NCBI GenBank assembly: GCA_024636775.1
Contig: JAGXGP010000028.1
Span: 1 to 33,843 of the forward strand
Origin: Hydrogenophilales bacterium
GTDB taxonomy: Bacteria > Pseudomonadota > Gammaproteobacteria > Burkholderiales > Thiobacillaceae
Direction: 5' to 3'
Length of the DNA: 33,843 bases
How positions within the stretch are numbered: the stretch's first letter is position 1; every line of letters starts with the position of its first letter. Below are positions 3,076 through 19,672 of the stretch, piece after piece. The notes under the pieces were generated by a model. That model had not been told where the DNA came from and did not search any database. It saw only the letters and a program-made list of their open reading frames with translations. Made by a program: the position numbers and the translations under genes.

Positions 3076-3098
3076 AAAAAAGCCCGCCGAAGCGGGCT
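3076..3098 (-). terminator. Rho-independent terminator of the lone pilin gene
   Basis: A perfect 7-bp GC-rich stem (AGCCCGC / GCGGGCT, 3081-3087 and 3092-3098) with a 4-nt loop is followed, on the minus strand, by a run of six U. It lies about 20 bp beyond the stop of the minus-strand pilin gene. The plus-strand side lacks a T run, so it serves the pilin rather than the Kef gene. Confidence 0.8.
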
Positions 3099-3118: not shown

Positions 3119-3760
3119 TTAAACACCCATGCAGACAATGTAGGGAGTGGCATCAACTAGAGTCCCGGTGGCAATGGCTGTCGGCAAGGTAGTACCCACC
3201 ATCAGGGAACCTGTTGCTGTGTTGCCGTCATCAAGTTGGGTGTCAAGTTGTTTGGCAAATCGGCCCAGAATGGCACCTGAACAAATGAAATAGGTGCCTG
3301 TCATCCCAGTAAATGGCGCAGCACCTTGGACACCGATGACGCCACCCACTGCATTGCGTTGTTGAAAGTCGGCTGCGGCTAATGCGGTCGGTCCGGGAGC
3401 CAATCCGGCCAGCCGAACATGTTGCCAGAACAGTACGGACTCATCGGCGGGAGTGACGCTGTTCCAATTGCCTGTGATGATCCCATCGCCATTGCCAGCT
3501 CCTGGGGTGACGGTGGTTGTGCCTACATGTAGCGCGGCGGCGGAGTCATCGCCTGGAAGTGCCCTGAACTTGTCTTGGTAGCCGTAAATGAATACCGGAA
3601 CGTTGCGGAAGTCGGAAGCGAGATTTTTCACCCGGGCGCTGTTAATCAGCTCTTGCCCCTTTAGAATACCGCCAAGCAAGAGCCCGATGATGACCAGCAC
3701 AATGGCGATCTCGATCAGGGTGAATCCCGATTGGTGTTTCGGGAGGGTGGGATGCGGCAT
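3119..3760 (-). CDS. Type IV pilin / pseudopilin with class III signal, sigma-54 promoter
   Basis: A 213-residue prepilin-like protein. A short basic leader is followed by the prepilin peptidase site and methylated N-terminus HQSG/FTLIEIAIVLV and a hydrophobic helix to about residue 36. Next comes a segment typical of pseudopilins (YQDKFRALPGDD, then a GDGI/NW stretch). Two cysteines (FICSG and IVCMGV at the very C-terminus) could form a disulfide loop, as in many pilins. The ATG at 3760 is supported by GGAG 8 nt upstream; in-frame starts further up would extend into the promoter region. It stands alone between a sigma-54 promoter and a terminator, away from the main pilus operon. It could be the major pilin or a regulated minor pilin of that machine; sequence alone does not decide. 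Confidence 0.85.
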   Translation of the reverse strand: MPHPTLPKHQSGFTLIEIAIVLVIIGLLLGGILKGQELINSARVKNLASDFRNVPVFIYGYQDKFRALPGDDSAAALHVGTTTVTPGAGNGDGIITGNWNSVTPADESVLFWQHVRLAGLAPGPTALAAADFQQRNAVGGVIGVQGAAPFTGMTGTYFICSGAILGRFAKQLDTQLDDGNTATGSLMVGTTLPTAIATGTLVDATPYIVCMGV

Positions 3761-3798
3761 GTAAGGTTCTCCGTTATATTTTCGCCTGCCATAAAGCC

Positions 3799-3814
3799 TG
3801 CAAAATGTGTGCCA
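3799..3814 (-). promoter_or_regulatory. Sigma-54 (-24/-12) promoter of the lone pilin gene
   Basis: The minus strand reads TGGCACACATTTTGCA, matching the RpoN consensus TGGCAC-N5-TTGCA at every defined position, with GG and GC at the required spacing. Transcription would start near 3788, about 28 nt before the pilin ATG, leaving room for the GGAG ribosome site. A sigma-54 activator of the NtrC class (GAFTGA motif) is encoded at 16347-17780. Confidence 0.85.
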
Positions 3815-3887
3815 GGCAGGGTGACGTTCTAACTTGTTGATATAAAAAATTAAAGTATCGATTTCCGCCTTTGAATGAAGGGCGTTC

Positions 3888-3924
3888 TGTCGAAAATACG
3901 ACACTCCTGCCAGAATTCCGGCAG
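3888..3924. promoter_or_regulatory. Two adjacent dyads upstream of the sigma-54 promoter, possible activator sites
   Basis: Dyad 1 (3888-3903) is TGTCG-N6-CGACA, perfect. Dyad 2 (3907-3924) is CTGCCAGAATTCCGGCAG, an 18-bp palindrome with one mismatched pair. Their centres lie about 107 and 127 bp upstream of the predicted pilin transcription start, 20 bp apart (two helical turns). That is the usual position for enhancer sites of NtrC-type activators. The two sequences are not copies of each other, and they could equally serve the divergent kinase gene. The role is inferred. Confidence 0.4.
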
Positions 3925-4020: not shown

Positions 4021-5751
4021 ATGACTGAACACGCCAACACCGCGCCGCATGTGAGTTGGCTGACTTCACTGGCTAACCGGCTTGCCCGGGTGGGATCCGG
4101 ACGCTGGCTGGCCTTGATGCTATTGGCGTTACATGCGGCGGTGGTGCTTGATGCCGAATCGGCAGTCACCCGCGCATTTTTGCTGGCGCATTACGGCCTG
4201 TTTTTGCTGTGGCAACCCGTGGTGCGCAGTGAATCGAGGATCGAGCCGCGCCTTGCGTTGCCGGTGTTCGCCATGGCCGCGTTGCTGGTGCTGGTGGACA
4301 GCACCTGGGTGATGGCATTGTGGCTGGCGGTTTTGGCTGGTCTCATGGGCGCTGTGGGCACGTCGCAAAACGATCGGTTTTCCCGGTGGGCGTATCTGCT
4401 CGCTTTGGCGTATTTGCTTGCGTTGCTTTTGGCCTGGGTATTGCCGCAGAGTCTGGGCGACACCTCCCTCCCCGACGAATTGAAATCGGTGGTGAACTAC
4501 GGGTTGCCGTTACTTCCGCTGGTGATCCTTTTTTTGCCGGCAAGCCGTCAGAAAGCCGCTTCCTCTACACTCGACTTTGTCTATGGCTTGATGCTGTCAT
4601 TGCTCATCATGGTGGTGGCGCTGGGTGCCTTTGCCGTGGTGGCGGTGGCCAAGGTGAGCTACGCTTGGGCGCTGGTGCAGACCTTGTTGGGGATGGCGGT
4701 GTTGCTGCTGTCGCTGTCGTTGCTGTGGAACCCACGCGCAGGATTTTCCGGGCTGGGTCAGGTGACTTCACGTTACCTGTTGTCAGTGGGCCTGCCTTTC
4801 GAAGGCTGGGCGCAGCGTCTGGCGACCTTGGCCGAGCGCGAGCGCGATCCGGAATCCTTTGTGCGCGATGGCCTGGCCGACCTCCACGAGCTGACCTGGA
4901 TACGGGGTGGTCACTGGCAGGCAGCTCGCGGCGAAGGCGTATTTGGTGAACCGGCCGAGCATAGCGTGAGCCATGTCTTTCATGGTCTCAGCCTGACCTG
5001 GCAATCGCCGCGGCCACTCACGCCCGCGCTGGCTTTGCATGTCCGTCTGCTGTCGCAGCTGCTGGGCTTTTTTTATGCCGCCAAAGTGCGCGAGCAAACG
5101 CTCCGCGAACAGGCCTACAGTCAGGCGATTCACGATACGGGCGCACGCCTGACCCATGACGTGAAGAACATCCTGCAGTCGATGAAAACCCTGATCGCTG
5201 CCGCGGATACGTCGACGCCTGAAGACGGTGAGCGTTTGCAAGCGCTGATGAAGCGCCAGCTGCCGCAATTGGCCGCGCGGTTGTCACAAACCGTCGACAA
5301 ACTCAAACAACCGGCTGAAATGGATGCCGCCAGTGTGGCTGCAAAAACCTGGTGGAAGGCCTTGCAGACGCGTTATGAACACGACGATGTGCAGTTTTTT
5401 GCAGATACGATCGATGACACGCCCCTGCCGCAGGACTTGTTCGATAGCGTAATCGACAATTTGCTGACCAACGCCTTGCGCAAACGCCAATCCGAATCGG
5501 CAGTGGCAATCGAGGTGCGTCTGTCCTTGAATCCACTGGTAAGCCTGACCATCACCGACAGCGGTGCACCTGCACCCGAGCATGTGGCGCGCAATCTGTT
5601 TCTGAGCCCGGTGGCATCGGATTCGGGATTGGGTGTGGGCTTGTATCAGGCCGCACGACAGGCTGCGCGGTCGGGGTTTCGCCTGGAGTTGCCGGACAAT
5701 CAGGCGGGGCGGGTGACGTTCCGGTTGCAGGCTACGGAGCGCAACCCGTAG
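4021..5751 (+). CDS. Membrane sensor histidine kinase (PrsK-like layout)
   Basis: Predicted 576-residue inner-membrane sensor kinase. Residues ~29-232 contain about eight hydrophobic helices with short loops, so sensing is probably within the membrane or via a bound partner rather than a large periplasmic domain. Residues ~250-360 form a soluble linker that may be a degenerate GAF domain. The phosphoacceptor is His379 in LTHDVKNILQSM, followed by a HATPase domain with an N box (VIDNLLTNAL), a D box (ITDSGAP) and a G box (GLGVGLYQAA). HDVKN-type H boxes after many N-terminal helices resemble PrsK kinases. The frame is open back to 3871, but ATG 4021 was chosen because the upstream part overlaps the regulatory region. 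It is divergent from the pilin, and its natural partner would be the regulator at 16347-17780. Confidence 0.85.
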   Translation: MTEHANTAPHVSWLTSLANRLARVGSGRWLALMLLALHAAVVLDAESAVTRAFLLAHYGLFLLWQPVVRSESRIEPRLALPVFAMAALLVLVDSTWVMALWLAVLAGLMGAVGTSQNDRFSRWAYLLALAYLLALLLAWVLPQSLGDTSLPDELKSVVNYGLPLLPLVILFLPASRQKAASSTLDFVYGLMLSLLIMVVALGAFAVVAVAKVSYAWALVQTLLGMAVLLLSLSLLWNPRAGFSGLGQVTSRYLLSVGLPFEGWAQRLATLAERERDPESFVRDGLADLHELTWIRGGHWQAARGEGVFGEPAEHSVSHVFHGLSLTWQSPRPLTPALALHVRLLSQLLGFFYAAKVREQTLREQAYSQAIHDTGARLTHDVKNILQSMKTLIAAADTSTPEDGERLQALMKRQLPQLAARLSQTVDKLKQPAEMDAASVAAKTWWKALQTRYEHDDVQFFADTIDDTPLPQDLFDSVIDNLLTNALRKRQSESAVAIEVRLSLNPLVSLTITDSGAPAPEHVARNLFLSPVASDSGLGVGLYQAARQAARSGFRLELPDNQAGRVTFRLQATERNP

Positions 5752-6436
5752 GACATACGCGGGGAAACAACAGGTAATACGGAATCCAGCTAATCAGATC
5801 GTCGAATTCACCGCTCGGATGGTCTGGATTGGTAGGCACTCCACTGACATAGACATTATCCCCATCCTGATTCTCCAACTCGTTTGGGCTCGTGGGGGCG
5901 GCCAGGGTGTTGCCGTTGATATTACGTGCGCCCCAGCCGTTGGCGCCGCGTGAAACTAGAACCACGGGCACATCAAGGGCAATGTCCCCTACTACGCAAG
6001 TATTTGAATTGCAGATTTGGTTCCAATTAGGGCCGGGTACGACGCCACTATTGATTCCAGCATTGTCGTTGGTGACATCGGTGTGCGTTGCATAATGCAG
6101 GCGATTACCCCAAGCATCCTGGGCTCCCGCGCCGAGCGTAACCCAAGGCAGAAATCCAAATTGTTGTGGGCATTCGCCGGCGGTACGTAACTCTTCTATT
6201 CCATCACCATTCGTATCGGGGCATGGTAAATACGGCTTATTACCCGCTGTCGTTTTGTGGGTCATTGCATAGCCGATTATCGCTTCCCGCGCCTCTTCCA
6301 GCGTTTTCTGGGTTTCGGCGATCCGCCGCGCCTGAATCTGCGCCGACAACGGTACCGCCAGCCCGCCAATCAGGATGGTGATGATGACCAAGACAATGGC
6401 CATCTCAATCAGGGTGAAGCCACGCTGGGTTGTCAT
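5732..6436 (-). CDS. Pseudopilin, last gene of the MSHA-type operon
   Basis: A 234-residue prepilin-like protein. The very short leader MTTQRG is followed by the cleavage and methylation site G/FTLIEMAIVLV and one hydrophobic helix to about residue 30. The next ~15 residues are likely coiled helix. After that comes YLPCPDTNGDGIEE, a signature seen in a class of betaproteobacterial pseudopilins near msh genes, and a Cys-rich C-terminus (CNSNTC, CPTGC). It would be processed by a prepilin peptidase not encoded here and inserted in the pilus or its tip. The ATG overlaps the stop of the upstream gene (ATGA), indicating translational coupling. Its stop lies inside the 3' end of the convergent kinase gene (20-bp overlap). 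It could be an MshO/MshD-like minor pilin; the assignment is not firm. Confidence 0.85.
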   Translation of the reverse strand: MTTQRGFTLIEMAIVLVIITILIGGLAVPLSAQIQARRIAETQKTLEEAREAIIGYAMTHKTTAGNKPYLPCPDTNGDGIEELRTAGECPQQFGFLPWVTLGAGAQDAWGNRLHYATHTDVTNDNAGINSGVVPGPNWNQICNSNTCVVGDIALDVPVVLVSRGANGWGARNINGNTLAAPTSPNELENQDGDNVYVSGVPTNPDHPSGEFDDLISWIPYYLLFPRVCPTGCAP

Positions 6437-6912
6437 GGCGCAATTTCCTTCATGGCAGGCTCGGCCATCGGGCTGGGGAGTTGAGGGCGCAACACCTGAT
6501 ACGGCTCATACACTTTGCCGTTGGCGCGGATCTGGCCCGGCTTCAGCCCGGTCACGCTGGAGGTGCCTACTTCGGCCTTGCCGTCGACCCAACGGGTGGA
6601 TTTTCCGTCCGAGCGGATGACGATGCCGTCAAAGCGTAGCGGTGCCGGGGCACGCGCAGGTTGGCTTTGTTTCGGACTGGTGTGATGTGTCAGGTTGCGT
6701 GCACGGGAATTTTCCAGCTGGCTACGTTGTGCCGGTGTGTAAAACAGCCGTCCGAATTCGGTCGGTTCTGCCTGGCTGACTGGGCTTGCCAACAGTGACA
6801 GCGGAATCAGCCAACCCATCAAGAAAACACGCCACGTGATCGCCTTTCCAGGCGAAAAGGCATGCAGACCATTGCGTAGGTCGCGATTCGATAACTCGCG
6901 CTGTAATTTCAC
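6433..6912 (-). CDS. mshK: MshK-like pilus biogenesis protein
   Basis: A 159-residue protein with one N-terminal membrane helix or signal anchor (residues ~31-48, ending near SPVSQAEP). A Pro/Ser-rich linker and a small C-terminal domain follow (FDGIVIRSDGKSTRWVDGK). That small domain resembles the short OB-like domains of MshK, GspC and PilP proteins, which link the inner-membrane platform to the secretin. The start is a GTG at 6912, chosen because AGGAGG lies 6 nt upstream and the GTG overlaps the stop of mshJ (GTGA); the frame is open further up but without support. Naming rests mostly on position after mshI-mshJ and on size, since the family is poorly conserved. Confidence 0.62.
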   Translation of the reverse strand: MKLQRELSNRDLRNGLHAFSPGKAITWRVFLMGWLIPLSLLASPVSQAEPTEFGRLFYTPAQRSQLENSRARNLTHHTSPKQSQPARAPAPLRFDGIVIRSDGKSTRWVDGKAEVGTSSVTGLKPGQIRANGKVYEPYQVLRPQLPSPMAEPAMKEIAP

Positions 6913-7508
6913 GAGGCTCCTCCTGTTGCTTCTACAACGGTATACCACTGAAGTTCACATTCGGCCTGCATATGCGGCAGGTTAAGGGCTTCGAAAGCCG
7001 GGGCGCCCTGCATGGTCAGACTGCAGCCCTGTACTCGAACCACGCCGGGGGCACGCGCCTTGAGCGCAGCCAAAAAGCGCGGGATATCGGTCTCCACCAG
7101 CACGGGGAATAGCAATGTCATGTTGGTCTGGCCAAGCGCCAATCCCTGTGCGAGGGTGGGTGGTGAGGCCATGCGTGGTGTGAGTCGGTAATCCAGGCCG
7201 TAGAGTCCCGCGTCGCGGTTGGCATTTTGTGCGGCCTCGATCCAGGCCAGACGATCTTCGGGGCCGACAAATCCGCGCACCGCCAGCGCCTGATAATCGT
7301 TCAGATGGGTTGCGATCAGTTGTTGCTGTTGGCGGCTGCGGTCAAGTTGTTGGCGCGCGGCATTCAGTGCAATGTCCTCCTGTTGCAATGTGGCGGCGGC
7401 GACTTGCGCCTGATTCCAGCTCCAGAGTGTGCCCCCTGCTGCCAGCACGAACGACACCAGCACCAGCACCAGGGATAGTTTGAGGACAGCAAACGGTGGG
7501 CGTTTCAT
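6909..7508 (-). CDS. mshJ: MshJ-like (PilO-type) inner-membrane assembly protein
   Basis: A 199-residue bitopic protein. One membrane helix (residues ~9-28) is followed by a Gln-rich coiled coil (~32-65) and a periplasmic alpha/beta domain, the layout of PilO/GspM/MshJ proteins. In the pilus machine this would pair with the MshI product through the coiled coil and form the alignment subcomplex between the ATPase platform and the secretin. The ATG at 7508 overlaps the stop of mshI and its own stop overlaps the start of mshK, so the three are translationally coupled. Sequence similarity in this family is low; the call is based on architecture and place in the operon. Confidence 0.7.
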   Translation of the reverse strand: MKRPPFAVLKLSLVLVLVSFVLAAGGTLWSWNQAQVAAATLQQEDIALNAARQQLDRSRQQQQLIATHLNDYQALAVRGFVGPEDRLAWIEAAQNANRDAGLYGLDYRLTPRMASPPTLAQGLALGQTNMTLLFPVLVETDIPRFLAALKARAPGVVRVQGCSLTMQGAPAFEALNLPHMQAECELQWYTVVEATGGAS

Positions 7509-9004
7509 GGCGGCGCCTCACGGTAGGTCAGGCTGAGGCCGAAGCGTACTACGGGCGCTTCGGCCGTATCGGGGCCGAAGGTTTTACCGGACAGGGTGCT
7601 GCTGGAATCGGCATTCACCGGGCTATTGCGCAAGCGGACCTCGAACACAGTGGGGACAGCCTGCAGGCGGCTCATGAAACGTTCAATGCGTTGCATGGCG
7701 GCGCGGTAGTTGCCGTCGAAAGTCGCGAGAGAAGCGTCGATATTGACAATGATCTGGCCTGAAGGTGTGAGCGTGTCGTCGGCCCATTCCAGCGTATTCA
7801 GGGTGATTTCTGGCGATGCATCCATGGCCTGCCCGACTGCGGCAAACAGTCCTCTGGCGTTGGGCTGCAGAGTATCAAGCTGGCGTGCCAGCGTGACGGT
7901 CTGTGCCAGTTGCTCGGGCGCGGCAGTTTGCACTGGAAATGAAGCCACAATGGTTTGATGCTGGGCCATTTGCTGCTGGCGCTGCTGGACGCGTTGCTGG
8001 GTCTGGTCATTGAGGTCCTGAGCCTGCAACCAGTAGGCAGAAGTTATCCCCAGTCCCAGCATCGCGATGAGTCCGGCAGCCGCATGCAGGCTGCGCCGCC
8101 AGCGAAACTCGGTGTACCGCTGCAGCAGTTCGGGTGGCGCCAGATTGAGCTGGATGGCTTCGCCGGCAATAGCGACCAACGAGGCGACTTCTGGCGTAGC
8201 AGCCAAAAAATCTTCAGGCATGCGTAACGCATGGCCGAGCGTTGAAAGTTGTATCAGCCGAGTGCTGAATGCAGGATCGGCATTGAGTTGCGCCAGTGCA
8301 CTGTCCAATTGTCCACTGGGATCGAGCAGCAAGACGTGCAGGCGTGCTTCGCGCGGCAGGATGCGCTGTCCCGTAAGATACAGCTGTGTCTTGGCTATTT
8401 CATCGGCGGCATTGCCCGGCAATTGCGTGGGCGAATCGCCGCCGATCAGACGTGAAAATCGCAGCATGCCTTCGTGATAGTAGGAAAGCCGCAAATTGCT
8501 GTTGAGGCGACAAGCCAGCAGGGTGTGTGTTTCCTGAACACGCAGTTTGCCCAGCAAGTGCTGGCAGGCTTTTGCCAGTGGGGTAATGCCAGACAACGGC
8601 ACCTGCGCACGGTGCAGCACGGAGAGCCAGGGCATCAGCCAGTCGGTATCGGTCAGGGCGGCCAGGAGGTAGCGATCGTCGCGGCGGCCCGTCGTTTCGC
8701 GTTTTTGCAGCCACGCGCCGGTAAAGCGTGCATTGCGAAATACCTGCTTGAGTTTGCGCGCGAGCAATTCGTCGCGTGAATGCCCTTGTACGTGGGGCAT
8801 GATTTCGCTGCGGTAATCTTCGTCGACGGTGTCGACGACCAGCAGCACCGGCAGGCTGGCATGCTCTTCAATGACCTGTCGGAACGCGGCCAGCCCTTTT
8901 GCGTTGTCAGGAAACTCGCCCAGCCAGTGCATGTGGCCCGGACGCCAGTCGAGCACACCAATCTTGTTGGGTGTGGCAAGCAGAATGAGTCGGTGGTCAA
9001 ACAT
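7505..9004 (-). CDS. mshI: MshI-like pilus assembly protein (PilM/PilN-type fusion)
   Basis: About 499 residues. The N-terminal ~290 residues are cytoplasmic and resemble the actin-like ATPase fold of MshI/PilM/GspL. One membrane helix follows (residues ~308-326, LIAMLGLGITSAYWL), then a Gln-rich coiled coil (QQRVQQRQQQMAQ) and a periplasmic domain like PilN. One protein therefore combines the cytoplasmic and membrane parts that are separate in PilM-PilN systems. It should recruit the MshE ATPase to the membrane and pair with MshJ. The stop of mshG overlaps the start as TGATG; a GTG directly before the ATG (9007) is an alternative start. The family assignment is mainly from layout and neighbours. 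Confidence 0.78.
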   Translation of the reverse strand: MFDHRLILLATPNKIGVLDWRPGHMHWLGEFPDNAKGLAAFRQVIEEHASLPVLLVVDTVDEDYRSEIMPHVQGHSRDELLARKLKQVFRNARFTGAWLQKRETTGRRDDRYLLAALTDTDWLMPWLSVLHRAQVPLSGITPLAKACQHLLGKLRVQETHTLLACRLNSNLRLSYYHEGMLRFSRLIGGDSPTQLPGNAADEIAKTQLYLTGQRILPREARLHVLLLDPSGQLDSALAQLNADPAFSTRLIQLSTLGHALRMPEDFLAATPEVASLVAIAGEAIQLNLAPPELLQRYTEFRWRRSLHAAAGLIAMLGLGITSAYWLQAQDLNDQTQQRVQQRQQQMAQHQTIVASFPVQTAAPEQLAQTVTLARQLDTLQPNARGLFAAVGQAMDASPEITLNTLEWADDTLTPSGQIIVNIDASLATFDGNYRAAMQRIERFMSRLQAVPTVFEVRLRNSPVNADSSSTLSGKTFGPDTAEAPVVRFGLSLTYREAPP

Positions 9005-10209
9005 CACAATGGCAGATTCCCGATCAGGTCGTAGATGGGCAACAGCACCGAGACCAAAATACCACCGAGCAGAATGCCGAGAATGGCCGTGAGCATGGGC
9101 TCGAGCACCCTAAGACCATTTTCAATCGATTCGAGCACTTCCCGGTTATAGAAAAACGTCACGTTATCCAGTGCTTCATCGAGCGCACCGGTCGTCTCAC
9201 CCACGCGCAGCATGCGGATCACCAGCGGCGGAAACAGCGCCTGCGCCTGAAAGCTTTCGGACAGCCCCTTGCCGTCTGAAATTTGCTGCGCGGCGCGATG
9301 AATGCCACGGGCAATCACCCGGTTGCCGGCTACGGCTTCGCCCGCGCGTAACGCGTCGAGCACCGTGACGCCCGAGCGGTACATCATCGCCAATGTGTTG
9401 GTAAAACGTGACAGCACGATCTTCTGCACGATGGGCCCGATAATGGGTAGCCGTAATTGGGCGTTGTCCCACCATTCGTGTCCCGCTTCGCTCTTTTTTA
9501 TCCATAGCGGTAATCCCACCCCCAGTGCGAGTGCCAGCAACAGGCCCACCAGCCAATATGAGCGCACCGCACTCGATACCGCCATCAGGATCAGCGTCGG
9601 CAGCGGCATCGCAACGCCCATGGTCTTCACCAACGAGAGCACCTGTGGCACCAGATAAATCAGTAAAAACAGAATGGCCGCGCCCACCACGACCAGAACC
9701 AGCGCCGGATAGATCATCAACTGTTTTGATTTGGCGGCCACTTCATCTTGCCATTTGAGCGATTCGGCCAAACGCTCGAATACCGCGTCAAGCAGCCCGG
9801 TCTGTTCGCCCGCCTTGATGCTGTGAACGAACACGGTACCGAACACAGCCGGGTGCGCAGCCAATGCTTGCGATAGCACTTTGCCCCCCTCCAGATCTTC
9901 CAGCAGCGCGGTCAGTACATCGCGAAAACCACGCTTTTCCATGGTGTCGCGCAAGTCGCGCAAGCCATCAAGCAAGGGAATCCCGGCGCGGGTGATATAG
10001 CGCATATGGATGCAGAAAGTCACCAGATCGCGCCGCGTGACCCGCTCGCGGCCGCTGGGCGCGTATTGCCGCGACAGTTCCGACAGGGTGATGAGGTCGA
10101 GCCCCATGCGCTTCAGGCGCAGTTCGAGGTCGACGTCGTTGACGGCAGAGAGCACGCCCTTGACCGAGCGTCCGGTTTGGTCGATGGCGCGGTAGTCAAA
10201 GAAGGGCAT
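9004..10209 (-). CDS. mshG: MshG, GspF/PilC-family inner-membrane platform protein
   Basis: A 401-residue polytopic protein of the type II secretion F family. Two copies of the cytoplasmic F domain are visible: residues ~65-190 (ITRAGIPLLDGL, AGEQTGLLD) and ~270-390 (MYRSGVTVLDALRAGE, RVGETTGALD). Each is followed by membrane helices, with a third pair near the C-terminus (LGILLGGILVSVLLPIYDL). It forms the platform on which the MshE ATPase acts to insert or remove pilin subunits. The ATG at 10209 has GAGG about 11 nt upstream. The length matches the family. It is separated from mshE by 83 nt, one of the few real gaps in the operon. Confidence 0.93.
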   Translation of the reverse strand: MPFFDYRAIDQTGRSVKGVLSAVNDVDLELRLKRMGLDLITLSELSRQYAPSGRERVTRRDLVTFCIHMRYITRAGIPLLDGLRDLRDTMEKRGFRDVLTALLEDLEGGKVLSQALAAHPAVFGTVFVHSIKAGEQTGLLDAVFERLAESLKWQDEVAAKSKQLMIYPALVLVVVGAAILFLLIYLVPQVLSLVKTMGVAMPLPTLILMAVSSAVRSYWLVGLLLALALGVGLPLWIKKSEAGHEWWDNAQLRLPIIGPIVQKIVLSRFTNTLAMMYRSGVTVLDALRAGEAVAGNRVIARGIHRAAQQISDGKGLSESFQAQALFPPLVIRMLRVGETTGALDEALDNVTFFYNREVLESIENGLRVLEPMLTAILGILLGGILVSVLLPIYDLIGNLPL

Positions 10210-10292
10210 GGTTAATTACGCCTCGCCATGGGCTTGCGAAAAGCGAAGTAGTCGCAAGTGCGTGCGCGGCAGAACCGAAACAAACTTCATCC

Positions 10293-11990
10293 TCACACCC
10301 GCCCGGTTAAGTCGACCACCCGCGCTACTTCCGCCAGCGAGGTGATGCCATCTTTCACCCGCTGGATGCCGTCTTCTGCCAGGGGATGGTAACCATGCTC
10401 GAGTGCGGCGCGACGTATTTCGTGGAGCGGAGCGTGATTGGCCACGAGTTCATCCAGCGTGGGGTCCATCCGCAGCAGTTCGATCAGCGCCAGCCGGCCT
10501 TTGTAGCCTTTGTTGCTGCAACCCGGGCAGCCGACAGCGCGGTAGATCTGCGGCGGCTGGGCCGGATCGGCACCGAGGAGGCCGATCTCATGTTCGTCCG
10601 GCGTGTAGGCTTCCTTGCACTTCGGGCAGAGTTTTCGGATCAGCCGTTGCGCGACAACACCGATGATGTTGCCGGACAGAATGCCGGGCTGGATACCGAT
10701 GTCCATCAGGCGCGGAAATACGCCGAGCGCGGAGTTGGTGTGCAGAGTGGTAAACACCTGGTGGCCGGTCATGGCGGCACGGAAGGCCATTTCGGCAGTG
10801 TCCTTGTCGCGGATTTCACCGACCAGGATGATGTCGGGGTCCTGTCGCATGATCGAGCGGATGCCGTTGGCAAAATCGAGCTTGATCGTTTCGTTGACTG
10901 AACTCTGGCGCATCAGCGTGACCGGATATTCGACCGGGTCTTCCAGCGTCATGATGTTGACGGTCTCGTTATTCAGATGCGAGAGCATCGAATACAGCGT
11001 GGTGGTTTTACCGGAGCCGGTTGGCCCGGTAACGACCAGAATGCCTTCCGGTCGCGCCATCATCAGGTGCAATTCACGCAGGGCCTTGGGGGTGAATCCC
11101 ATCTGTTCCAGCGGCACGATGGACTTTTCGCGGTCGAGTATGCGCAGCACCAGATTTTCGCCGTGAATGCCCGGTTGAGATGACACCCGGAAATCGATCG
11201 GGCGACCGTTCAGCGTCAATGACATGCGGCCATCCTGCGGCGCGCGCGTCTCCGCGATGTTCATCCCGGACAGCACTTTCAGTCTCACCAGGATGCCCGG
11301 CCAATAGGTTTTATGCAGGCTGCGAATTTGCTCCAGCACGCCGTCGATGCGGTAGCGGATGCGCAAAAAAGCGTGCTCGGGCTCGAAGTGGATGTCGGAG
11401 GATTCGCGCTTCATCGCATCGGTGAGGAGTGCGCCGACCAGCCGTACCACCGGCTGGGTGTATTCCTCCGTCTCGGGATTGAGGCTGGCGTAATCGACCT
11501 CGCCGGTTTCGATTTCGCGCAGAATGCCATCGAGCGAAAGGTCAAAGCCGTAGAACTTGTCGATGCATTCGAGCAGTTGGGCTTCGGCCGCCAGCAGGGT
11601 GTAGATTTCAAGCTGGCCGCCGAGTGCGGCTTTTAATTGGTCGAGTGCGACGACGTTGAACATGTCGGTGGTCGCCAGCGTCAGGATATTGCGCGTCGCG
11701 TCGTGGGCAATGGGGAGCAGGTGGTGGCGGCGGGCGAATTCCTCGGGCACCAGTTGCAAGGCCTCGGAATCGGCGACCACCTGGGAGAGATCGATACCCT
11801 GGCTGCCCAGCGCGTTGGCAAGCTGGTCGCGCAGCACCGCTTCGGTCATGAAGCCAAGCGCAACCAACTGGCGCCCAATGGGCAGGCCGGTGGTTTTTTG
11901 TTCTTTTAGACCAATGCGCAGCTGGTCGGTGGTGATGAGGCCCTGAGAAATCAGGGTTTCACCCATGCGGAGTTTTTTACGACGCTCCAT
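10293..11990 (-). CDS. mshE: MshE, GspE/PilB-family pilus extension ATPase with MshEN domain
   Basis: A 565-residue hexameric ATPase that drives pilus polymerisation at the inner membrane. The N-terminus holds an MshEN-type region with two tandem half-motifs: RMGETLISQG...LKEQ (residues 9-32) and IGRQLVALG...LANA (~38-60). In the family this binds c-di-GMP. The ATPase core has Walker A GPTGSGKT (322-329), an Asp box around IMTLEDPVEYP, Walker B DPDIILVGEIRD and a His box TTLHTNSA. A four-cysteine zinc knuckle (CPKC ... CPGC) lies near residue 480. The ATG at 11990 is supported by AGGA 7 nt upstream, overlapping the mshN stop. An in-frame ATG at 11966 would remove the first residues of the c-di-GMP motif. 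Ten bases separate it from mshN. Confidence 0.95.
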   Translation of the reverse strand: MERRKKLRMGETLISQGLITTDQLRIGLKEQKTTGLPIGRQLVALGFMTEAVLRDQLANALGSQGIDLSQVVADSEALQLVPEEFARRHHLLPIAHDATRNILTLATTDMFNVVALDQLKAALGGQLEIYTLLAAEAQLLECIDKFYGFDLSLDGILREIETGEVDYASLNPETEEYTQPVVRLVGALLTDAMKRESSDIHFEPEHAFLRIRYRIDGVLEQIRSLHKTYWPGILVRLKVLSGMNIAETRAPQDGRMSLTLNGRPIDFRVSSQPGIHGENLVLRILDREKSIVPLEQMGFTPKALRELHLMMARPEGILVVTGPTGSGKTTTLYSMLSHLNNETVNIMTLEDPVEYPVTLMRQSSVNETIKLDFANGIRSIMRQDPDIILVGEIRDKDTAEMAFRAAMTGHQVFTTLHTNSALGVFPRLMDIGIQPGILSGNIIGVVAQRLIRKLCPKCKEAYTPDEHEIGLLGADPAQPPQIYRAVGCPGCSNKGYKGRLALIELLRMDPTLDELVANHAPLHEIRRAALEHGYHPLAEDGIQRVKDGITSLAEVARVVDLTGRV

Positions 11991-11999
11991 GCGATGTTC

Positions 12000-13199
12000 C
12001 TACCGAACCGATTTGAGTTGTTGCACGCGCGCTTCGGCTTGGGCGCGATCGAAGCGGTGCACGCCTCCGATCGCGATCGCCTTCTCGTAATACCTCAGCG
12101 CGGCGGTAGTCTGCCGCAACTGATCGAGACTGACAGCAAGATTGAACGCGTAATCGGCATTGTCTGGGGCATTGCGATAGGCCTCGAAATACGCGGCCTG
12201 GGCATCGCTCCAACGCTTCTGGTCTGCATACAGGTTACCGAGCGTTTGGTAGAGCTGCGGACTGGGATCGCGGTCGATCAGCGTTTTCAGACGGCTTTCT
12301 GCCGCCAGGCTGTCGGTATTGCCCAACAGGTCGAGCAGGGCAGCTTGAGCAGCAGCGTTGCGCGGATCATTGTCCAGCACTTCGCGGTACAGGCGTTGTG
12401 CGTCAACCTCGCGATTCTGCACGCTGGCAATGGCGGCTAATCCCAACATGGCATCCACGCTACGGTTGCGCGCCGCAGCCTGAGTGTAAAGCCGTTGTGC
12501 TTCGGTCAGTGTACCGCGCTGATAGGCGGCGTAGGCCTGGCTGAGCAAAGCGGTGTGAACATCGGGCTGGAACTGCACCGGCGCGGCAGGCGGGGGGGCT
12601 ATGGTTCTGTTGGGGGGGCTGCTCGAGCGAACACTGCGGGTTGTGACAGAGGAGACTGAAATGGATTGCTCAGGCGCAGGCGCGGTCACTTGAGCGGGCG
12701 CTGATAGGGGGTCGGCTGTCGCCGTTGCGGGTTCCGAACGCGGCAACGGAGGCGTGTGGGCCAATGCAGCGGGCGCGTGAGCAGAAGGGGTTGCTGGCGT
12801 CGGACTGAGGGGGGCGGGTGCAGCGACAAATGGCGTAACGGAGGGCGTAATAACATTTGCTGGAGGCGTGGTTACCGCAGCAGGGGGCCGTAATTCAAAA
12901 TACAGGTAAATCCCGTAGCCCACTGCAACGAGTGCAGCAAGCAGTGCAACCAGCGGCACCAGCGAGAGCTGCGGCCAGCGAAAAGCCGGCGCGAGTCGCG
13001 GCGCGTCTGGTGCCAGACCGCTTGGGCCAAACAACAAGCCCGGCGGCTCTATCCATTCGGGATCTTTATCCGTCCCGGTGGCAGACAGGGGCTCCAGTTC
13101 AAGGTCCCCCTCACCACGACCCGGCCCGGTTTCACCGGCCTCGGGCTTGGCCGCATGGGCGGCTTCAGCCTGCTTCAGCGCTTTGAGAAGCAGGCTCAA
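12000..13199 (-). CDS. mshN: MshN-like TPR protein with TTG start
   Basis: A 399-residue bitopic protein. It opens with the conserved MSLLLKALKQAE of MshN/GspB/ExeB-like proteins. One membrane helix (residues ~77-100) is followed by a long Pro/Ala/Thr-rich periplasmic linker (~105-205) and a C-terminal array of TPR-like helices (~210-395; YAAYQRGTLTEAQRLY, YQTLGNLYADQKRW, YAFNLAVSLDQL). It probably scaffolds secretin or pilus parts across the periplasm. The start is TTG at 13199: no ATG or GTG exists between the upstream in-frame stop (about 13215) and this point, the family N-terminus begins exactly there, and GGAG lies 6 nt upstream. It follows mshL by 25 nt. Confidence 0.8.
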   Translation of the reverse strand: MSLLLKALKQAEAAHAAKPEAGETGPGRGEGDLELEPLSATGTDKDPEWIEPPGLLFGPSGLAPDAPRLAPAFRWPQLSLVPLVALLAALVAVGYGIYLYFELRPPAAVTTPPANVITPSVTPFVAAPAPLSPTPATPSAHAPAALAHTPPLPRSEPATATADPLSAPAQVTAPAPEQSISVSSVTTRSVRSSSPPNRTIAPPPAAPVQFQPDVHTALLSQAYAAYQRGTLTEAQRLYTQAAARNRSVDAMLGLAAIASVQNREVDAQRLYREVLDNDPRNAAAQAALLDLLGNTDSLAAESRLKTLIDRDPSPQLYQTLGNLYADQKRWSDAQAAYFEAYRNAPDNADYAFNLAVSLDQLRQTTAALRYYEKAIAIGGVHRFDRAQAEARVQQLKSVR

Positions 13200-13224
13200 G
13201 GCGTGCTCCGCACGTCAGGCTTGA

Positions 13225-15000
13225 TCACTGGGCACTCCGACTGGGGAGCAAGCGCTGGAACTGGCGCAGTTCATCGCTTTCCAGCGTGGGATTTGTAACG
13301 ACAATCGGGCGCAGAAAAATCACCAGTTCGGTCTGGCTGTTGATGCGCTCGTGTTGGCCGAAGATGGCACCGACCCCCTCGGGGCGGGACAGGCCTGGCA
13401 AGCCATCTCGGGCGTTGTTGCTGTCGTCCTGGATCAAGCCGCCGAGGACGACGGTTTGGCCGCTGCGAATCTGTAACAATGATTCCATCTCACGGACCTG
13501 GATGACCGGGACCTTGTTGCTGATGTTGAGTCCGCCTTGTTTTAATAATGGGCTGGGGTCTTCTACGTCGCCAACTTTGCGGGTGATGGTTGGGCGAACT
13601 GTTAGGGAAACAAGGCCGTTGTCACCAATCTGGGGTGTCACGCTCATGACTACACCTACCGGAACAGTATGGACTTCAGTTTTGACGGCTGAGGGGATAA
13701 CAAGCCCTGACGCGGTGATGGTGCCCTGTGCTACGTCTATGGAAAAATAGACTAAATTGTTGACCACTTTGAGTAAAGCGGTCTGGTTGTTAAGCGCCAT
13801 CAATTTAGGACTCGATAGCACCTTGGTATTGCCATAGGATTCCAGTAAGTCAATCGTTGCCTTGAAATCCCATTTATCGTTGTTTGTGTAGGCAATGTTG
13901 AAAAATGGCGAAAGCGCATTTGCCAAATTGGTGCCCCCAGTTCCTGCGCCGACGGTATTCACCGTCCAGCCGGTGACACCTGAAACCAGGTTTTGCCAGT
14001 TGATTCCGGCGCGATATTGATCCTTGAGTGTGACTTCGACAATGGTAGCCTCTATCAATACTTGACGCTGTGCAGATTGCATTACGCGATCAATGTATTG
14101 CTGCACCAGTTCCTGCTGTTTTGCGGTGCCTAGAACCGAGATTGTGCCTGCCATTGGGTTGGCCGCGACATCGTACTTACCGTCACCCACTGGCTGGTTG
14201 GCAAACGCTGCTGTAAACAGGCTGGCTGCGCCTGCCCCCGCTTTGCTGGCCGCTTCGGCCTGCGACACCCGTTCGGCGCGGGCGATTTTCTCGGCATCCA
14301 GCCGGGCGGCGCGTTCTTCGTTGTTCTGGGTGACAGCGCGGGTGCCGGCGAGAATGGTTCGGATGTTGTCTGCCAATACCGTCCACAAGTCGTTGTTGGA
14401 CTGGCTGGACACGGTGGTGTTGGATGAGTTTCCACCTATCGCAGACGAACCGCCTGCTGTTCCTACGCTGCCGCCGGTGCTGGCAATTTGCGCCGCCACC
14501 CCCACGCTGGAGGTGGTGTTGCGAGCGACGTTCACATAATTGACGGAATAGGTTTTGACGTAGGGGGTGTCAGGCATGATCGACACGGTGCGGCCATTCA
14601 ATTCGTAGCGAAGATCAGCCTGTCGCGCGATGCGGTCGAGGATGGCGGGTAGCGGTTCCTGAACGGCATTGAGTGAGACGCGACCGGAGATGCCCGGATG
14701 CAGATCGATGTTGTACTGGGTATCCCGGGCGATGGAAAACAGCAGATCCTTGACCGGCACATCGTTGACCACCACGGTGTAGGTGGGCACCGGGGCGCTG
14801 GGCTGAGGGGGCGCCAAGGTGGGGGCGGCTCTAACCGGTGCCGGTGGCGGAGTAGCCGATGCGGCGGTTTGAACGGGCTGGTTGATATGGCCGGGCGACG
14901 TGTCAAACGCTTTGGGAGGCACACAGCCCCCGATCAGTAGCAAGCTGATCAGCCCTGGACCGGTCAATAAGAAGCGTTTCAATACAGCGTTCATCTTCAT
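13225..15000 (-). CDS. mshL: MshL, outer-membrane secretin lipoprotein
   Basis: A 591-residue secretin of the PulD/PilQ superfamily through which the pilus crosses the outer membrane. A lipoprotein signal ends at LLLIGGC (Cys26). A Pro-rich linker leads to an STN/N0-like domain (residues ~74-145; VPVKDLLFSIARDTQYNI). An unusual Gly/Ser/Asn-rich loop and an Ala/Glu/Arg-rich helix (~190-290) precede an N1-type domain. The secretin core runs from ~325 to 575, with VLIEATIVEV, VLSSPKLMALNNQTA, VPVGVVMSVTPQI and SGQTVVLGGLIQDD. The ATG overlaps the stop of mshM (ATGA). Length and domain order fit MshL. Confidence 0.93.
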   Translation of the reverse strand: MKMNAVLKRFLLTGPGLISLLLIGGCVPPKAFDTSPGHINQPVQTAASATPPPAPVRAAPTLAPPQPSAPVPTYTVVVNDVPVKDLLFSIARDTQYNIDLHPGISGRVSLNAVQEPLPAILDRIARQADLRYELNGRTVSIMPDTPYVKTYSVNYVNVARNTTSSVGVAAQIASTGGSVGTAGGSSAIGGNSSNTTVSSQSNNDLWTVLADNIRTILAGTRAVTQNNEERAARLDAEKIARAERVSQAEAASKAGAGAASLFTAAFANQPVGDGKYDVAANPMAGTISVLGTAKQQELVQQYIDRVMQSAQRQVLIEATIVEVTLKDQYRAGINWQNLVSGVTGWTVNTVGAGTGGTNLANALSPFFNIAYTNNDKWDFKATIDLLESYGNTKVLSSPKLMALNNQTALLKVVNNLVYFSIDVAQGTITASGLVIPSAVKTEVHTVPVGVVMSVTPQIGDNGLVSLTVRPTITRKVGDVEDPSPLLKQGGLNISNKVPVIQVREMESLLQIRSGQTVVLGGLIQDDSNNARDGLPGLSRPEGVGAIFGQHERINSQTELVIFLRPIVVTNPTLESDELRQFQRLLPSRSAQ

Positions 15001-16340
15001 CCTGTTGGTAGCACTACGGTACGCATTTTGCCGACCGACCGCAGAAACGGAGAACCCGCAGGCATGGCAGGCAAGGTGCGCAGGGCTGCCATGGCCGTGT
15101 CACGATTGGGATACTCCCCCGCCAGGATCATCCAGGCGGGCTTACCCTGACTCAAACCATGCAGCACCCGCACCGGTTGTGGGGTGGCATGTCCAAATAT
15201 CATCAATAATACGGCTGCCTGAGCCGCTTCTTTAGCTGAGGCCACCTGAATCACGTGGGTACCGGGGGAGGCGGCAGCTAGCCAGTGTTGGGTTTGTCGG
15301 GCCAAATCGGTTACACGGGCGATGGATTCAACTACGGGGGCGGCGGTTACCGTGGCTTCGGGGAAAGCTGCGACAGAGGGGGACTGTGCAGCGGGAACGG
15401 CTGCCAGAGGCGAAGGCTTCTGCGACAGTGACTGCCACGCCACAAACACCAGCAAGCCGAGTGCGGCCGCGAGTCCTGCACTCAGCCACGCCCAGCGACG
15501 GTGTTCCGGTCGGATTAGAGGTCGTTGAGGGTGCGGTTGCATTTCAGCATCGCCCGCAGCGGCATCGAGGTGCGCCGAGGTGAGGGTATGGGTTTGCCCG
15601 GCGTAGGCCGCCAGCAAGGTCTTGTCGGCCAGCACGTTGATGCGGCGCGACAGTCCGCCCGAAATTCGGGTCATGCGCGTGATCAGTGATGGTGAAAATA
15701 GATCAGGGCCGCGATATCCCGCTACTGCCAGCCGTGACCGGAGGTAATCGGCGACTTCGGATTCTGCCAGCGGCGACAGGTTCAGGCTCAGCGTGATGCG
15801 GTCTTTCAACTGGCGGATACGTTGATCGGCCAATTGCACGTCGAGCTCGGGTTGACCAAACAGAACAATTTGCAGGAGCTTGTCGGTCGCGGTTTCCAGA
15901 TTGGTCAGCAGCCGCAGAAATTCCAGGTTGTCGAGTGCGATGCCTTGCGCTTCTTCGACAAACACCACGACACGCCGTCCGGTTTCGTGACGGGCCAGCA
16001 AGGCGCTATTGAGTTGGGCCAGCCGTGCTTGCCGGCTGGTCTCGGGGGTGTCAACGCCGAGGTCAGCCAGAATCGCCGCCAGCATGTCGTCGGGCGACAA
16101 GGTCGGATTGCCGAGATAAACGCTGTCGACGCTGTCGGGTAGCTGGGCAACCAGCTTGCGGCACAGCATGGTCTTGCCGCTACCGACTTCGCCCACCACC
16201 TTGATGATGCCTTCACCCTGAGCAATGGCGTAGAGCAGGGCTGCGAGCATTTCCCCGCGTTGACCACCGGCATACCAGTACTCGGTATTCGGCGTGATGC
16301 GAAAGGGGGCTTCGTTTAGACCGAAATAATCAAAATACAC
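14997..16340 (-). CDS. mshM: MshM, ExeA-type AAA ATPase with C-terminal SPOR-like domain
   Basis: A 447-residue protein. It begins with MYFDYFGLNEAPFRITP, the family N-terminus. The AAA domain has Walker A GEVGSGKT (residues 50-57), Walker B VVVFVEEAQ and a sensor segment LLQIVLFGQPEL. A membrane helix follows at ~282-300 (WLSAGLAAALGLLVFVAWQ) and then an Ala/Pro-rich linker. The last ~85 residues resemble a SPOR/DamX domain (THVIQVASAKE, KPAWMILAGEYPNRDTAMAAL). ExeA-type ATPases help the secretin pass or anchor in peptidoglycan, and a SPOR domain binds denuded glycan. The start is GTG at 16340, 7 nt after the regulator's stop, with a weak ribosome site; the conserved N-terminus supports it. 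Confidence 0.87.
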   Translation of the reverse strand: MYFDYFGLNEAPFRITPNTEYWYAGGQRGEMLAALLYAIAQGEGIIKVVGEVGSGKTMLCRKLVAQLPDSVDSVYLGNPTLSPDDMLAAILADLGVDTPETSRQARLAQLNSALLARHETGRRVVVFVEEAQGIALDNLEFLRLLTNLETATDKLLQIVLFGQPELDVQLADQRIRQLKDRITLSLNLSPLAESEVADYLRSRLAVAGYRGPDLFSPSLITRMTRISGGLSRRINVLADKTLLAAYAGQTHTLTSAHLDAAAGDAEMQPHPQRPLIRPEHRRWAWLSAGLAAALGLLVFVAWQSLSQKPSPLAAVPAAQSPSVAAFPEATVTAAPVVESIARVTDLARQTQHWLAAASPGTHVIQVASAKEAAQAAVLLMIFGHATPQPVRVLHGLSQGKPAWMILAGEYPNRDTAMAALRTLPAMPAGSPFLRSVGKMRTVVLPTG

Positions 16341-16346
16341 GTGAGC

Positions 16347-17780
16347 TTATTCTTCGGTGCTGTAGGTCTGCATCCGACTATAAAGCGTGGTGCGGTTGAT
16401 GCCGAGCATCTTGGCGGCCTGCGACAGGTTGCCATGGGTCATGTTGAGAGCGGCTTCCACGTAGGCCTTTTCCCACTGACGCAAGGTGACGTCGAGGTTG
16501 AAGTTGGCGACCGTTTGCAGTTGTTTGCGCGCCAGTTCAATCAGCAATTTGCCGTCGTTGGCCAACGGAATTTCTTGCGGATAGGCCTGGTCGGTATCGA
16601 GCTCGTCCTCCAACTGCTGGGCGTTTACTGTCTTACCAGGGTATTTCGTGGTCAGGCGAATGGCGATGTTGCGCAGTTCACGCACGTTGCCCGGGAAGTG
16701 GTAGTCCGCCCACATTTGCTGTGCACGGTCATCAAGATTAAATGGCTGGCTTTTGGCTTCGTGAGCGTAAAAGCCGCGGAAATGATTGAGCAGGGTGAGT
16801 TTGTCCTGACCCATTTCACGTAGCGGCGGCACCGCAATGGAGAATACCGATAACCGATGATAGAGGTCGGCACGAAAGCGGCCGGCCTTGATTTCTGCGC
16901 GTAGGTCACGGTTGGTCGCGGTGACGACACGCGCATTGGAAAAACGCGGCTGGGTTTCGCCGACACGCTGGTATTCGCCGTTTTCCAGCACCCGCAACAA
17001 CTTGGCCTGGAGTTCCAGCGGCAACTCGCCGATTTCGTCGAGGAACAGTGTGCCGTTTTCGGCTTCTTCGAAATAACCGGCACGGGAGCTGGTCGCGCCG
17101 GTGAACGCACCCTTGGCGTAACCGAACAAGGTGGGTTCGACCAGCGTTGGTGAAATGGCCGCACAGTTCAGTGCCAGATAGGGTTTGGGTGCACGGGGTG
17201 ACAACTGGTGCAGGCTGGATGCGACTCGCTCTTTTCCGCTACCGGATTCGCCTTCGATCAGGACGGGGAAAGGTGCGGCAGCATATTGCTTGATTTGCTC
17301 CCGCAGTTTGTCTATGGCCGGACTTTCGCCCACGATGCCGGAGTCTTTGATGGGTGCAGGGGCTTTTTCAGCGCTACGTTCTGCATCCTGAACCAGCAGC
17401 GCATTGAACAGCAGCGACTTGAGCCGCTCGGGCTCGCAGGGCTTGGCCACGAAATCGATCGCACCCAGCGCCCGAGCGTGACGTGCATTGGCTTCGTCGC
17501 TCTGGCCGGAAAGGACCAGAATCTTGATGCTGGGGGAAATGCTCAGCAGGTCTGCGATCAGGGCAAAGCCCTCATCGGGCTTATGCGGATGCGGTGGCAG
17601 ACCCAGATCAACCAGGGCTAACTGGGGCGGTTCGTCCAGTTGCATCAGCAGGCTTTTAACCTGGGCACGTGACTCGGCGGCCGAGATTTCGAAATCCTTG
17701 CTCAATACATAAGTGAGCGTATCGGATATCAGCGGATCGTCATCAACGATCAGCAAACTAGGCTTGTTGGTATGGGCCAC
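16347..17780 (-). CDS. Sigma-54-dependent response regulator (PrsR-like), first gene of the pilus operon
   Basis: A 477-residue NtrC-class activator. The receiver domain has DDD at residues 13-15, the phosphoacceptor Asp58 in LVDLGLPP, and the switch lysine in FVAKPCEP. The AAA+ domain has Walker A GESGSGKE (177-184), the sigma-54 contact loop GAFTGA (224-229) and Walker [12 protein letters not shown] Fis-type helix-turn-helix closes the protein ([20 protein letters not shown]). The DLGLPP-x-P-x4-EG receiver resembles PEP-CTERM regulator PrsR, but no PEP-CTERM gene is present here. The start is GTG at 17780 with GGAGG 4 nt upstream; ATG at 17816 is in frame but lacks a ribosome site. The kinase at 4021-5751 is the likely partner and the promoter at 3799-3814 a likely target. 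Confidence 0.9.
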
Positions 17781-17968
17781 ATGTCCTCCGGGTCGAGTGG
17801 TACCCCTTCGGGGCATAAATGCGAAATCGCGCCTGCATCTGAGGATGCGTCATTTGTTCTACGCGTGTCGGATTTTCGCCGATTGTGCCAGAGACACAGA
17901 TAAAGTTAAACCAGATTGGTAGACAGCGTGGCGGTTTGCGCTGTGTAGTTGGACCGGATAACGTCTAT

Positions 17969-19672
17969 TTAGCCCTCCACAGGCTTGATGGCTACATGAA
18001 TCCAGCCTTCGCTGCTCTCGATGGGCTTGCCTAACAATATGAGCTTGAGGTCGGTTGTGCCGTTGACCTGACATACTTTTCCGGACAAATAATGCACAGA
18101 ATCAAGAATCAGGCTGTGGTTGCCTTTGCTGTCTGCCAGGATCAAACCTGAATTTGGCAGGGTTGGTGGGTTGTTGACTGAGCCCTTGACGGTGTAGTCA
18201 GCCGTGCCCGCATCTTGCAGGGATATCAGCGAAGGGGTTTCGGTCAATGTTTCAATCCCGACCGAACTGGTATCGCTACTGATACGCGACAAACGGCGCA
18301 CCATGCCAAGCTGCCATGTGTCCGACTCGTGTGTTTTGATGCCAATCAGCGCGCCCACCCGCAGCCAATCCTTGTCGCGTGATTCAACAACCGCACCAAA
18401 GCCGCATTCGCTTTCGTCGTGCATGACCCAACGTTCGACGTCGGGGGCATTAGCGGTGCTCGTTACGGTTGGAGTCTGTGTGGAATCGACACGTTCACGT
18501 GTACGTTCGGTGATAAAGCCATACACCCGAACATCATCTTCTTCATTGTAGTTGAGCCCCATACCGTAGGGTGAGGCGCGGGTGGGGGCATCCGCTGCCT
18601 TGAGTTGGCCAAAAATGGCATTCAGACCGTGCGCAACATCGACCAGGCGTTTGATGGGGGCACGCGGGGCCCGGCGTTGTTCGCGGTCCTCGAGTGAAGC
18701 CCATTGGTGCTGAAGATGTTCCAGGAGTTCGAGGCTTTCGGCGGTACGGGCGTTGTCGCCCAAACCCAATTGTGCGGGGGTGCCGCCTTTTTTCAGTGAG
18801 TCATGAAGGGTTTGCACCACGAGTAAAAGATCGGCCGTGGACCAGAATCGCATGGGTTTCTCTATGTCGGGTTTACGAACCCGACGTGGCCCCTGGTCGG
18901 CTGACATATCAACGGAAAACGTATGGGCTTCAGCATCCAGTTGGGTGTCGAGGTTGAGTTGGTTATGCCACAGGCATAGCCAGCGATCCAGCAGGTCGAG
19001 TTGCTTGGGGTAGAGCGTGCCGGAATTGGCCAGGTTCAGCATCAACGTGTGCAGGTAGGCTGATTGGCAGCTGCATTCGGTTGTTTCTTCAGGATAGGCG
19101 CGCTGCAGTTTCACCTGGAAATCATGGGCTTCGGCTATGCGGTAGAGGTTATGCAACCTGAACCAGAGTTTTTCGCTGGCGGGCAAGTAGCGAATGGCAC
19201 GCCATTTCAGTAACTGGCCAAATGCGCGAATGGCCCGCAGGGTAATTAGCGGAATCGAAGCATCCAGCGGGTTTTTTCCGGTTTCGTTGGAAATGTGCAA
19301 TACAAAGGTGTGATAGCCCCGAGCAACTTCCCAGTTCAGGCCGTACACCGCATGCCAGAGTTGGCTTTCGACCTGTCGAGACATGCGCGGATTGCGTAAA
19401 TATTGGCGAACCAGCGTGTCCTGAAAGTCTCGCGACTTCACGTCCAGCAACATGAATATAGCCAGACGGACTTTTGTGAAATCCGTTGAAGTTTCGTTGA
19501 TGCGCTTAAGTTGAGCGTAGATGGCCTGCTGGCTCTTGTAGGCATCACCTGCGTGCAGCCCCTCGATCCAGCTTGTGGCTGCCTTGAGGCTGACGAGCGG
19601 GTCATCAGCCGGCTTGCCGGTTGGCAACAGTCGAGCAAATCCAGATGCAAGCTTTTCGGCGAGTGAATTCAT
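17969..19672 (-). CDS. Conserved protein with PilZ-like C-terminal domain, possible c-di-GMP binder
   Basis: A 567-residue, predominantly soluble protein with no signal peptide or clear membrane helix. The first ~380 residues are alpha-helical and match no family I can name. The C-terminal ~180 residues look PilZ-like: RTRER (Arg390 and Arg394, pattern RxxxR), then 25 residues later DESECG (Asp419, Ser421, Gly424; pattern DxSxxG). This is followed by LRVGALIGIKT and WQLGMVRRLSR, in the manner of beta-barrel PilZ strands. In true PilZ domains these residues bind c-di-GMP. The gene lies upstream of the pilus operon on the same strand, 188 bp before the regulator, and 70 bp downstream of alaS. 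Molecular function is unknown; c-di-GMP binding is inferred from the motifs only. Confidence 0.7.
   Translation of the reverse strand: MNSLAEKLASGFARLLPTGKPADDPLVSLKAATSWIEGLHAGDAYKSQQAIYAQLKRINETSTDFTKVRLAIFMLLDVKSRDFQDTLVRQYLRNPRMSRQVESQLWHAVYGLNWEVARGYHTFVLHISNETGKNPLDASIPLITLRAIRAFGQLLKWRAIRYLPASEKLWFRLHNLYRIAEAHDFQVKLQRAYPEETTECSCQSAYLHTLMLNLANSGTLYPKQLDLLDRWLCLWHNQLNLDTQLDAEAHTFSVDMSADQGPRRVRKPDIEKPMRFWSTADLLLVVQTLHDSLKKGGTPAQLGLGDNARTAESLELLEHLQHQWASLEDREQRRAPRAPIKRLVDVAHGLNAIFGQLKAADAPTRASPYGMGLNYNEEDDVRVYGFITERTRERVDSTQTPTVTSTANAPDVERWVMHDESECGFGAVVESRDKDWLRVGALIGIKTHESDTWQLGMVRRLSRISSDTSSVGIETLTETPSLISLQDAGTADYTVKGSVNNPPTLPNSGLILADSKGNHSLILDSVHYLSGKVCQVNGTTDLKLILLGKPIESSEGWIHVAIKPVEG

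Follow-up and report, generated by a model that had tools for sequence, protein, structure and literature searches.

How is the supply of a single pilin controlled when its gene stands apart from the operon for the pilus machine? This question is raised by the 33,843-nucleotide stretch of DNA analyzed here (the window), which makes up contig C68 of a draft genome (2.8 Mb, 87% complete) whose closest named relatives are mostly Thiobacillus. In it, a lone type IV-type pilin gene lies back to back with that of a membrane sensor histidine kinase, followed by an MSHA-type operon with an NtrC-type response regulator at its head (Table 1). The original prediction saw in this arrangement a dedicated two-component switch for one pilin, a reading now supported by a conserved -24/-12 element, paired upstream dyads, an IHF-type site at a common offset in Thiobacillus, the distribution of a strict dyad core and the co-occurrence of kinase and regulator. 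Going by sequence comparison, we put at about 0.84 the probability that the kinase–regulator pair forms a dedicated RpoN switch for the lone pilin; it is footprinting, i.e., conservation across genomes, that carries the case. The genome itself has one RpoN match, so that rpoN is present.

Table 1. Coordinates of the genes and predicted signals in the window.
Feature	Position	Strand	Basis
Intrinsic-terminator-like hairpin past pilin stop	3081..3098	-	1 found in scanned stretch, 1.6 expected in shuffles
Lone type IV-type pilin gene, 213 aa	3119..3760	-	N_methyl PF07963; N-terminus conserved, body exchangeable
Ribosome-binding site GGAGA of pilin	3768..3772	-	Sequence
Predicted transcription start	3788	-	Position of the element: 12 nt downstream of the -12 C at 3800
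-24/-12 sigma-54 promoter element TGGCACACATTTTGCA	3799..3814	-	Perfect match and conservation
IHF-type site TATCAACAAGTTA	3830..3842	-	Sole perfect match in window, 0.5 expected
Putative upstream activator dyad II TGTCGTATTTTCGACA, centre about -108	3888..3903	-	Conservation; strict core match
Putative upstream activator dyad I TGCCGGAATTCTGGCA, centre about -128	3908..3923	-	Conservation; 20 bp from dyad II
Membrane sensor histidine kinase, divergent from pilin	4021..5751	+	HATPase_c; hydrophobic segments in residues 24-235; LTHDVKN H-box
MSHA-type operon: MshL-like secretin, ATPase, GspF/PilC-like protein, second pilin	5732..16340	-	NCBIfam/Pfam matches
NtrC-type response regulator, heading the msh operon	16347..17780	-	Receiver, Sigma54_activat with GAFTGA, Fis-type HTH
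Dyad at regulator promoter (plus strand: TGTCGGATTTTCGCCG)	17866..17881	-	Genus alignment; strict core match
Sigma-70-like promoter TTTAAC-17-(TGG)CACAAT before the dyad	17882..17910	-	15-row genus alignment; hexamers tentatively assigned

For the comparisons, a scan of named genomes gave 385 relatives, and from these we retained 80 loci; the pilin is present in 74 of these, with no pilin within the examined DNA of the other six (L147, L167, L176, L177, L178 and L187). The loci L129-L179 come largely from the same genomes as the genus set G001-G055, and the two sets were never summed. The thresholds of all comparative counts are those set in this analysis.

The -24/-12 element has, as originally claimed, no mismatch to TGGCAC-N5-TTGCW; it is the sole perfect match within the window and lies 38 nt upstream of the pilin ATG. 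The predicted start leaves a leader of 28 nt, in agreement with the length first given. Imperfect matches by themselves carry no meaning in the window, since those with up to two mismatches number 27 against 27.2 expected. Genome-wide there are 13 perfect matches against one for a reversed control pattern, and several of the remaining 12 also precede open frames, as judged by eye. Conservation of the site upstream of the same pilin in related genomes had been named as a check on the original prediction, and it is widespread: when up to two mismatches are allowed, 40 of 43 Thiobacillus loci (1.7% in shuffles) and 28 of 30 loci of other genera (1.3% in shuffles) have such a site no more than 80 nt from the ATG, the distance between site and ATG being mostly 34-52 nt. 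The Thiobacillus exceptions are L141 and L155, with three mismatches each, and L169, with no site; outside the genus, L191 has three mismatches, L200 five, and the site-less L205, lacking an ATG, was omitted from the count. Given these counts, we regard the predicted element as confirmed and as going beyond chance. On the same stretch, a sigma-70 scan around the pilin gave no match, which is weak evidence since merely 0.7 was expected, and the terminator-like hairpin is no more frequent than in shuffles, so that its placement after the pilin stop, rather than number, is the argument for it.

The site is absent at its usual spacing from all six loci examined in three further genera of the family (L113-L117 and L127), which keep the pilin and the kinase. 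In four of these six, a single degenerate dyad precedes the pilin match by 81-89 nt; in five, GFTLIE is preceded at 31-32 nt by a GG/GC pair.

When 30 intergenic regions from the genus are aligned, further conserved blocks become apparent. The IHF consensus is WATCAANNNNTTR, and a match to it with at most one mismatch is found at one common offset in 28 of 42 Thiobacillus loci, as against none at seven control offsets; among the loci of other genera no common offset is apparent. Farther upstream are two tandem dyads of the form TGNCG-N6-CGNCA with centres 20 bp apart. A pair of these at a spacing of 20-21 bp, with up to two mismatches each, is present in 39 of 42 Thiobacillus loci (missing in three) and 20 of 30 loci of other genera (missing in 10), compared to about 1% in shuffles of blocks of two bases, the site-less L169 and L205 being omitted from these counts. 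As the motif was discovered in Thiobacillus, the figure from the other genera is the independent one.

A strict version of the dyad core, GTCGNATTTTCGNC, ties the pilin to the regulator: it has exactly two matches in the 2.8-Mb genome, one in the pilin promoter and the other in that of the regulator gene. In the genus (56 genomes) its matches number 40, distributed over 30 genomes, against 12 for the reversed control; 21 of the 40 are in regulator promoters, seven in pilin promoters and 12 elsewhere, a number equal to that of the control, so that the strict core shows no excess outside the two promoters. Weaker regulon sites may exist, since the strict core misses many degenerate dyads, including those before many pilins, and it is absent from 26 of the 56 genomes. 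This absence and the restriction of the IHF-type site to Thiobacillus slightly lower our confidence in the switch. An alignment of 15 rows from the genus (L222 omitted) shows the region upstream of the regulator gene to be conserved, with the dyad, located immediately past the sigma-70-like promoter, recognizable by eye in 14 of the 15. A row from another family (L223) has no match to this region, and outside the genus the dyad was not found at the regulator promoter in any of five loci.

The two proteins have most of the features first ascribed to them. The kinase gene is indeed divergent from the pilin and its product matches HATPase_c; the HisKA domain that had also been claimed gives no match with Pfam, where none of 12 kinase homologues gives a PAS or HisKA match at E 1. 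Its putative phosphoacceptor is H379 in the LTHDVKN motif. The regulator has all the features of the NtrC-type class, with D58 of the receiver as the candidate phosphoacceptor, and probably starts at the GTG at 17780 rather than at 17816; its GAFTGA motif and its place at the head of the operon stand as predicted, and its start is about 14 kb from the pilin ATG. A distance of 10.6 kb separates the kinase gene from that of the regulator. The machine between them has an MshL-like secretin slightly below the model cut-off (TIGR02519, 247.0 bits against 250.2) and an ATPase with an MshE-type c-di-GMP motif above its own (NF053729, 51.3 against 38); the genes of the operon are, presumably and partly by position, mshM, N, G, I, J and K.

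Despite their separation the two genes go together. At E <1e-50, fragments included, 51 of the 56 genus genomes have the kinase, which also occurs in other families of the order, in 34 of 82 sampled genomes. Among 199 genomes, uncorrected for relatedness, 108 have both proteins, seven only the kinase, five only the regulator and 79 neither, with cut-offs of E <1e-50 for the kinase and up to 1e-100 for the regulator and with many incomplete drafts among them. In five stretches chosen because the regulator lies away from the kinase and pilin (L224-L228), the regulator is directly before msh genes in all five, with alaS upstream of it in three; in the same genomes the pilin is within about 2 kb of the kinase (L113, L114, L115, L121 and L125), and in two of them, G058 (L113, L224) and G083 (L115, L226), kinase and regulator are on separate contigs. 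In the window, a 567-aa protein (17969-19672) is encoded between the regulator and alaS, a place kept in three loci of another genus; it has no Pfam or NCBIfam match at the thresholds used.

The proteins had also been called PrsK/PrsR-like, which raises the prospect that the pilin belongs to the PEP-CTERM regulon governed by that pair, or that the window pair is itself the PrsK/PrsR system. TIGR02915 is the best NCBIfam match of the regulator; the genome's PrsR is its nearest paralogue in a tree of 12 proteins (94/93, with long branches), in which seven regulators form one clade (100/100); and TIGR02916 matches six of 12 kinase homologues below its cut-off. The identity is nevertheless rejected: the regulator attains 365 bits against a TIGR02915 cut-off of 502.6 and the kinase 41 against 300 for TIGR02916, with no match of the window kinase to the latter at E 0.1 in the scan of the 12 homologues, and a pair above both cut-offs is encoded on contig C77 of the same genome. 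In the part of the published account drawn on here, the PrsK and PrsR genes are in tandem or close (PMC1569441), unlike the widely spaced genes of the window, and motif 1 ends in TTTACA, unlike the window dyad (PMC1569441). The label was thus a loose one, and we consider the PEP-CTERM explanation very improbable.

Somewhat less remote, though still improbable, is the prospect that the sigma-54 promoter answers to PilR or another enhancer-binding protein, with the window regulator controlling something else. The genome has five other proteins with a full Sigma54_activat domain, one of them on contig C119 beside a kinase whose PAS-like and HEIRNPLS sequence we take as a PilS hallmark, so that the two presumably constitute a PilS/PilR-like pair; PilS has PAS and HisKA domains. 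That pair, along with the split genes of the window, is why the latter were not classed as PilS/PilR. Against another activator stand the strict core, common in this genome only to the pilin and the window regulator's own promoter, and the joint occurrence of regulator and kinase. Least credible of all is a fortuitous -24/-12 match with the pilin using some other promoter: the chance-level number of imperfect matches and the three related genera without a site at the usual spacing speak for it, but conservation near the ATG across genera, together with the paired dyads, is hard to reconcile with it.

The dedicated RpoN switch would, as we envisage it, act as follows. The membrane kinase would sense a signal and phosphorylate the NtrC-type regulator, which would bind the pair of tandem dyads centred some 108 and 128 bp ahead of the start; IHF might, in Thiobacillus, bend the DNA at about -48, and the regulator would then drive RpoN polymerase at the -24/-12 element. 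The lone pilin would be a single-gene sigma-54 unit, probably providing a major subunit for the MSHA-type pilus next to it. Autoregulation in Thiobacillus is suggested as well, by the dyad that covers the start of the regulator's sigma-70-like promoter.

Two-component control of pilins through RpoN is known from PilS/PilR and Nps/Npa; judged from the DNA, the window presents a variant with split genes and an MSHA-type machine. For that machine the known counterpart is probably the MSHA pilus of Vibrio, with which the secretin and ATPase matches and the gene order agree; the sigma-54 pilin differs in lying outside the operon. As in PilS/PilR, which controls pilA in Pseudomonas (also recounted in the available part of PMC6528607), a sensor kinase and an NtrC-type regulator go with a pilin behind a predicted sigma-54 element, and the promoter anatomy fits; in contrast, the genes here are split, the machine is MSHA-type and the kinase is without a PAS or HisKA match. 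The closest published system that we found is Nps/Npa of commensal Neisseria. According to the portions of that report consulted, Nps/Npa and RpoN control pilE by way of an upstream activator sequence and with IHF, the control does not extend to the nine further pilus gene clusters that were tested, nps and npa follow one another in an operon that also contains parC, their products serving the main type IV pilus, and Nps, a PilS homologue, is without PAS (PMC6528607). The promoter logic is the same here, a likeness drawn without comparing the proteins; unlike those genes, which on this partial account are in tandem with parC, those of the window kinase and regulator occupy the two ends of an MSHA-type locus. 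With PrsK/PrsR, as far as the excerpts go, the window shares a transmembrane kinase, an NtrC-type regulator and single genes behind a sigma-54 site with an upstream motif (PMC1569441, PMC9850573); it differs in having the two genes far apart, another upstream motif and another target. PilA is listed among the genes with predicted sigma-54 promoters, enriched in beta-Proteobacteria, in the section seen of a further study (PMC12316311). No RpoN control of an MSHA pilin appears among the papers listed in the literature searches, and no title or opening of an abstract among them describes this switch, of which a published account may exist. The pair may stand for a two-component family that no model in our Pfam and NCBIfam scans fits, and such a private regulator would allow the way in which a pilus adjusts its subunit supply to be tested directly.

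The pilin itself evolves in two parts. Compared with L148, whose kinase is 97% identical, DNA identity in steps of 100 bases is 86-99% through most of the kinase, the intergenic region and the pilin N-terminus, drops to 36-69% over the pilin body and its 3' flank, and recovers to 82-99% in the next gene. Three body types occur among 43 rows (A in 22, B in 14, C in seven); these are diverged homologues, with about 37-44% identity between A and B and 29-40% between A and C. On the kinase tree 15 changes of type are needed, the minimum being two, against a mean of 18.1 in shuffles, 11 of 200 of which were as low; thus, the body type tracks the kinase tree weakly. The body of the lone pilin (3119-3660) has, in this manner, been swapped among three types behind a constant promoter and N-terminus, suggesting selection on the exposed pilus surface in these environmental sulfur bacteria. 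Such divergence is to be expected of surface-exposed subunits and would fit the role of major pilin. A PDB sequence search gave five weak matches, including a geopilin (E 0.049) and MshA 9lab (0.73). Between close relatives, strong divergence of the body is likewise seen in the second pilin (5732-6436), with which the msh operon ends.

What the kinase senses may be the pilin itself: as a tentative idea, to which we give odds well below even, it could act as a pilin-inventory sensor of the MSHA-type pilus by reading the membrane-embedded N-terminus. This would account for the kinase keeping its place next to the pilin also where the regulator and the msh operon lie apart, and for a nearly invariant N-terminus combined with a freely exchanged body. 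If true, species could change the exposed surface while the feedback loop and the promoter stay intact.

That the exchanged bodies stem from silent pilin cassettes was considered and rejected for lack of evidence: of the 56 genomes, 47 match a type B body query and 46 a type C query, usually with a single match at the pilin locus. Additional matches are a 27-residue piece (G055:C221), a weak match (G013:C16), two adjoining pieces in G008 and one at the end of a contig (G006:C40). An Rfam scan of the window gave no match at the gathering threshold. Relatives of the kinase with 44-85% identity also occur under the labels Bordetella, Rhizobium or Chitinophaga (L181, L186, L201, L132 and L200), which possibly are mislabelled metagenome bins. 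Finally, two loci (L196:8360-10195 and L119:10753-12578) have two extra genes between kinase and pilin, whose products resemble, by eye, an ABC-2 permease-like membrane protein and a TPR-like protein.
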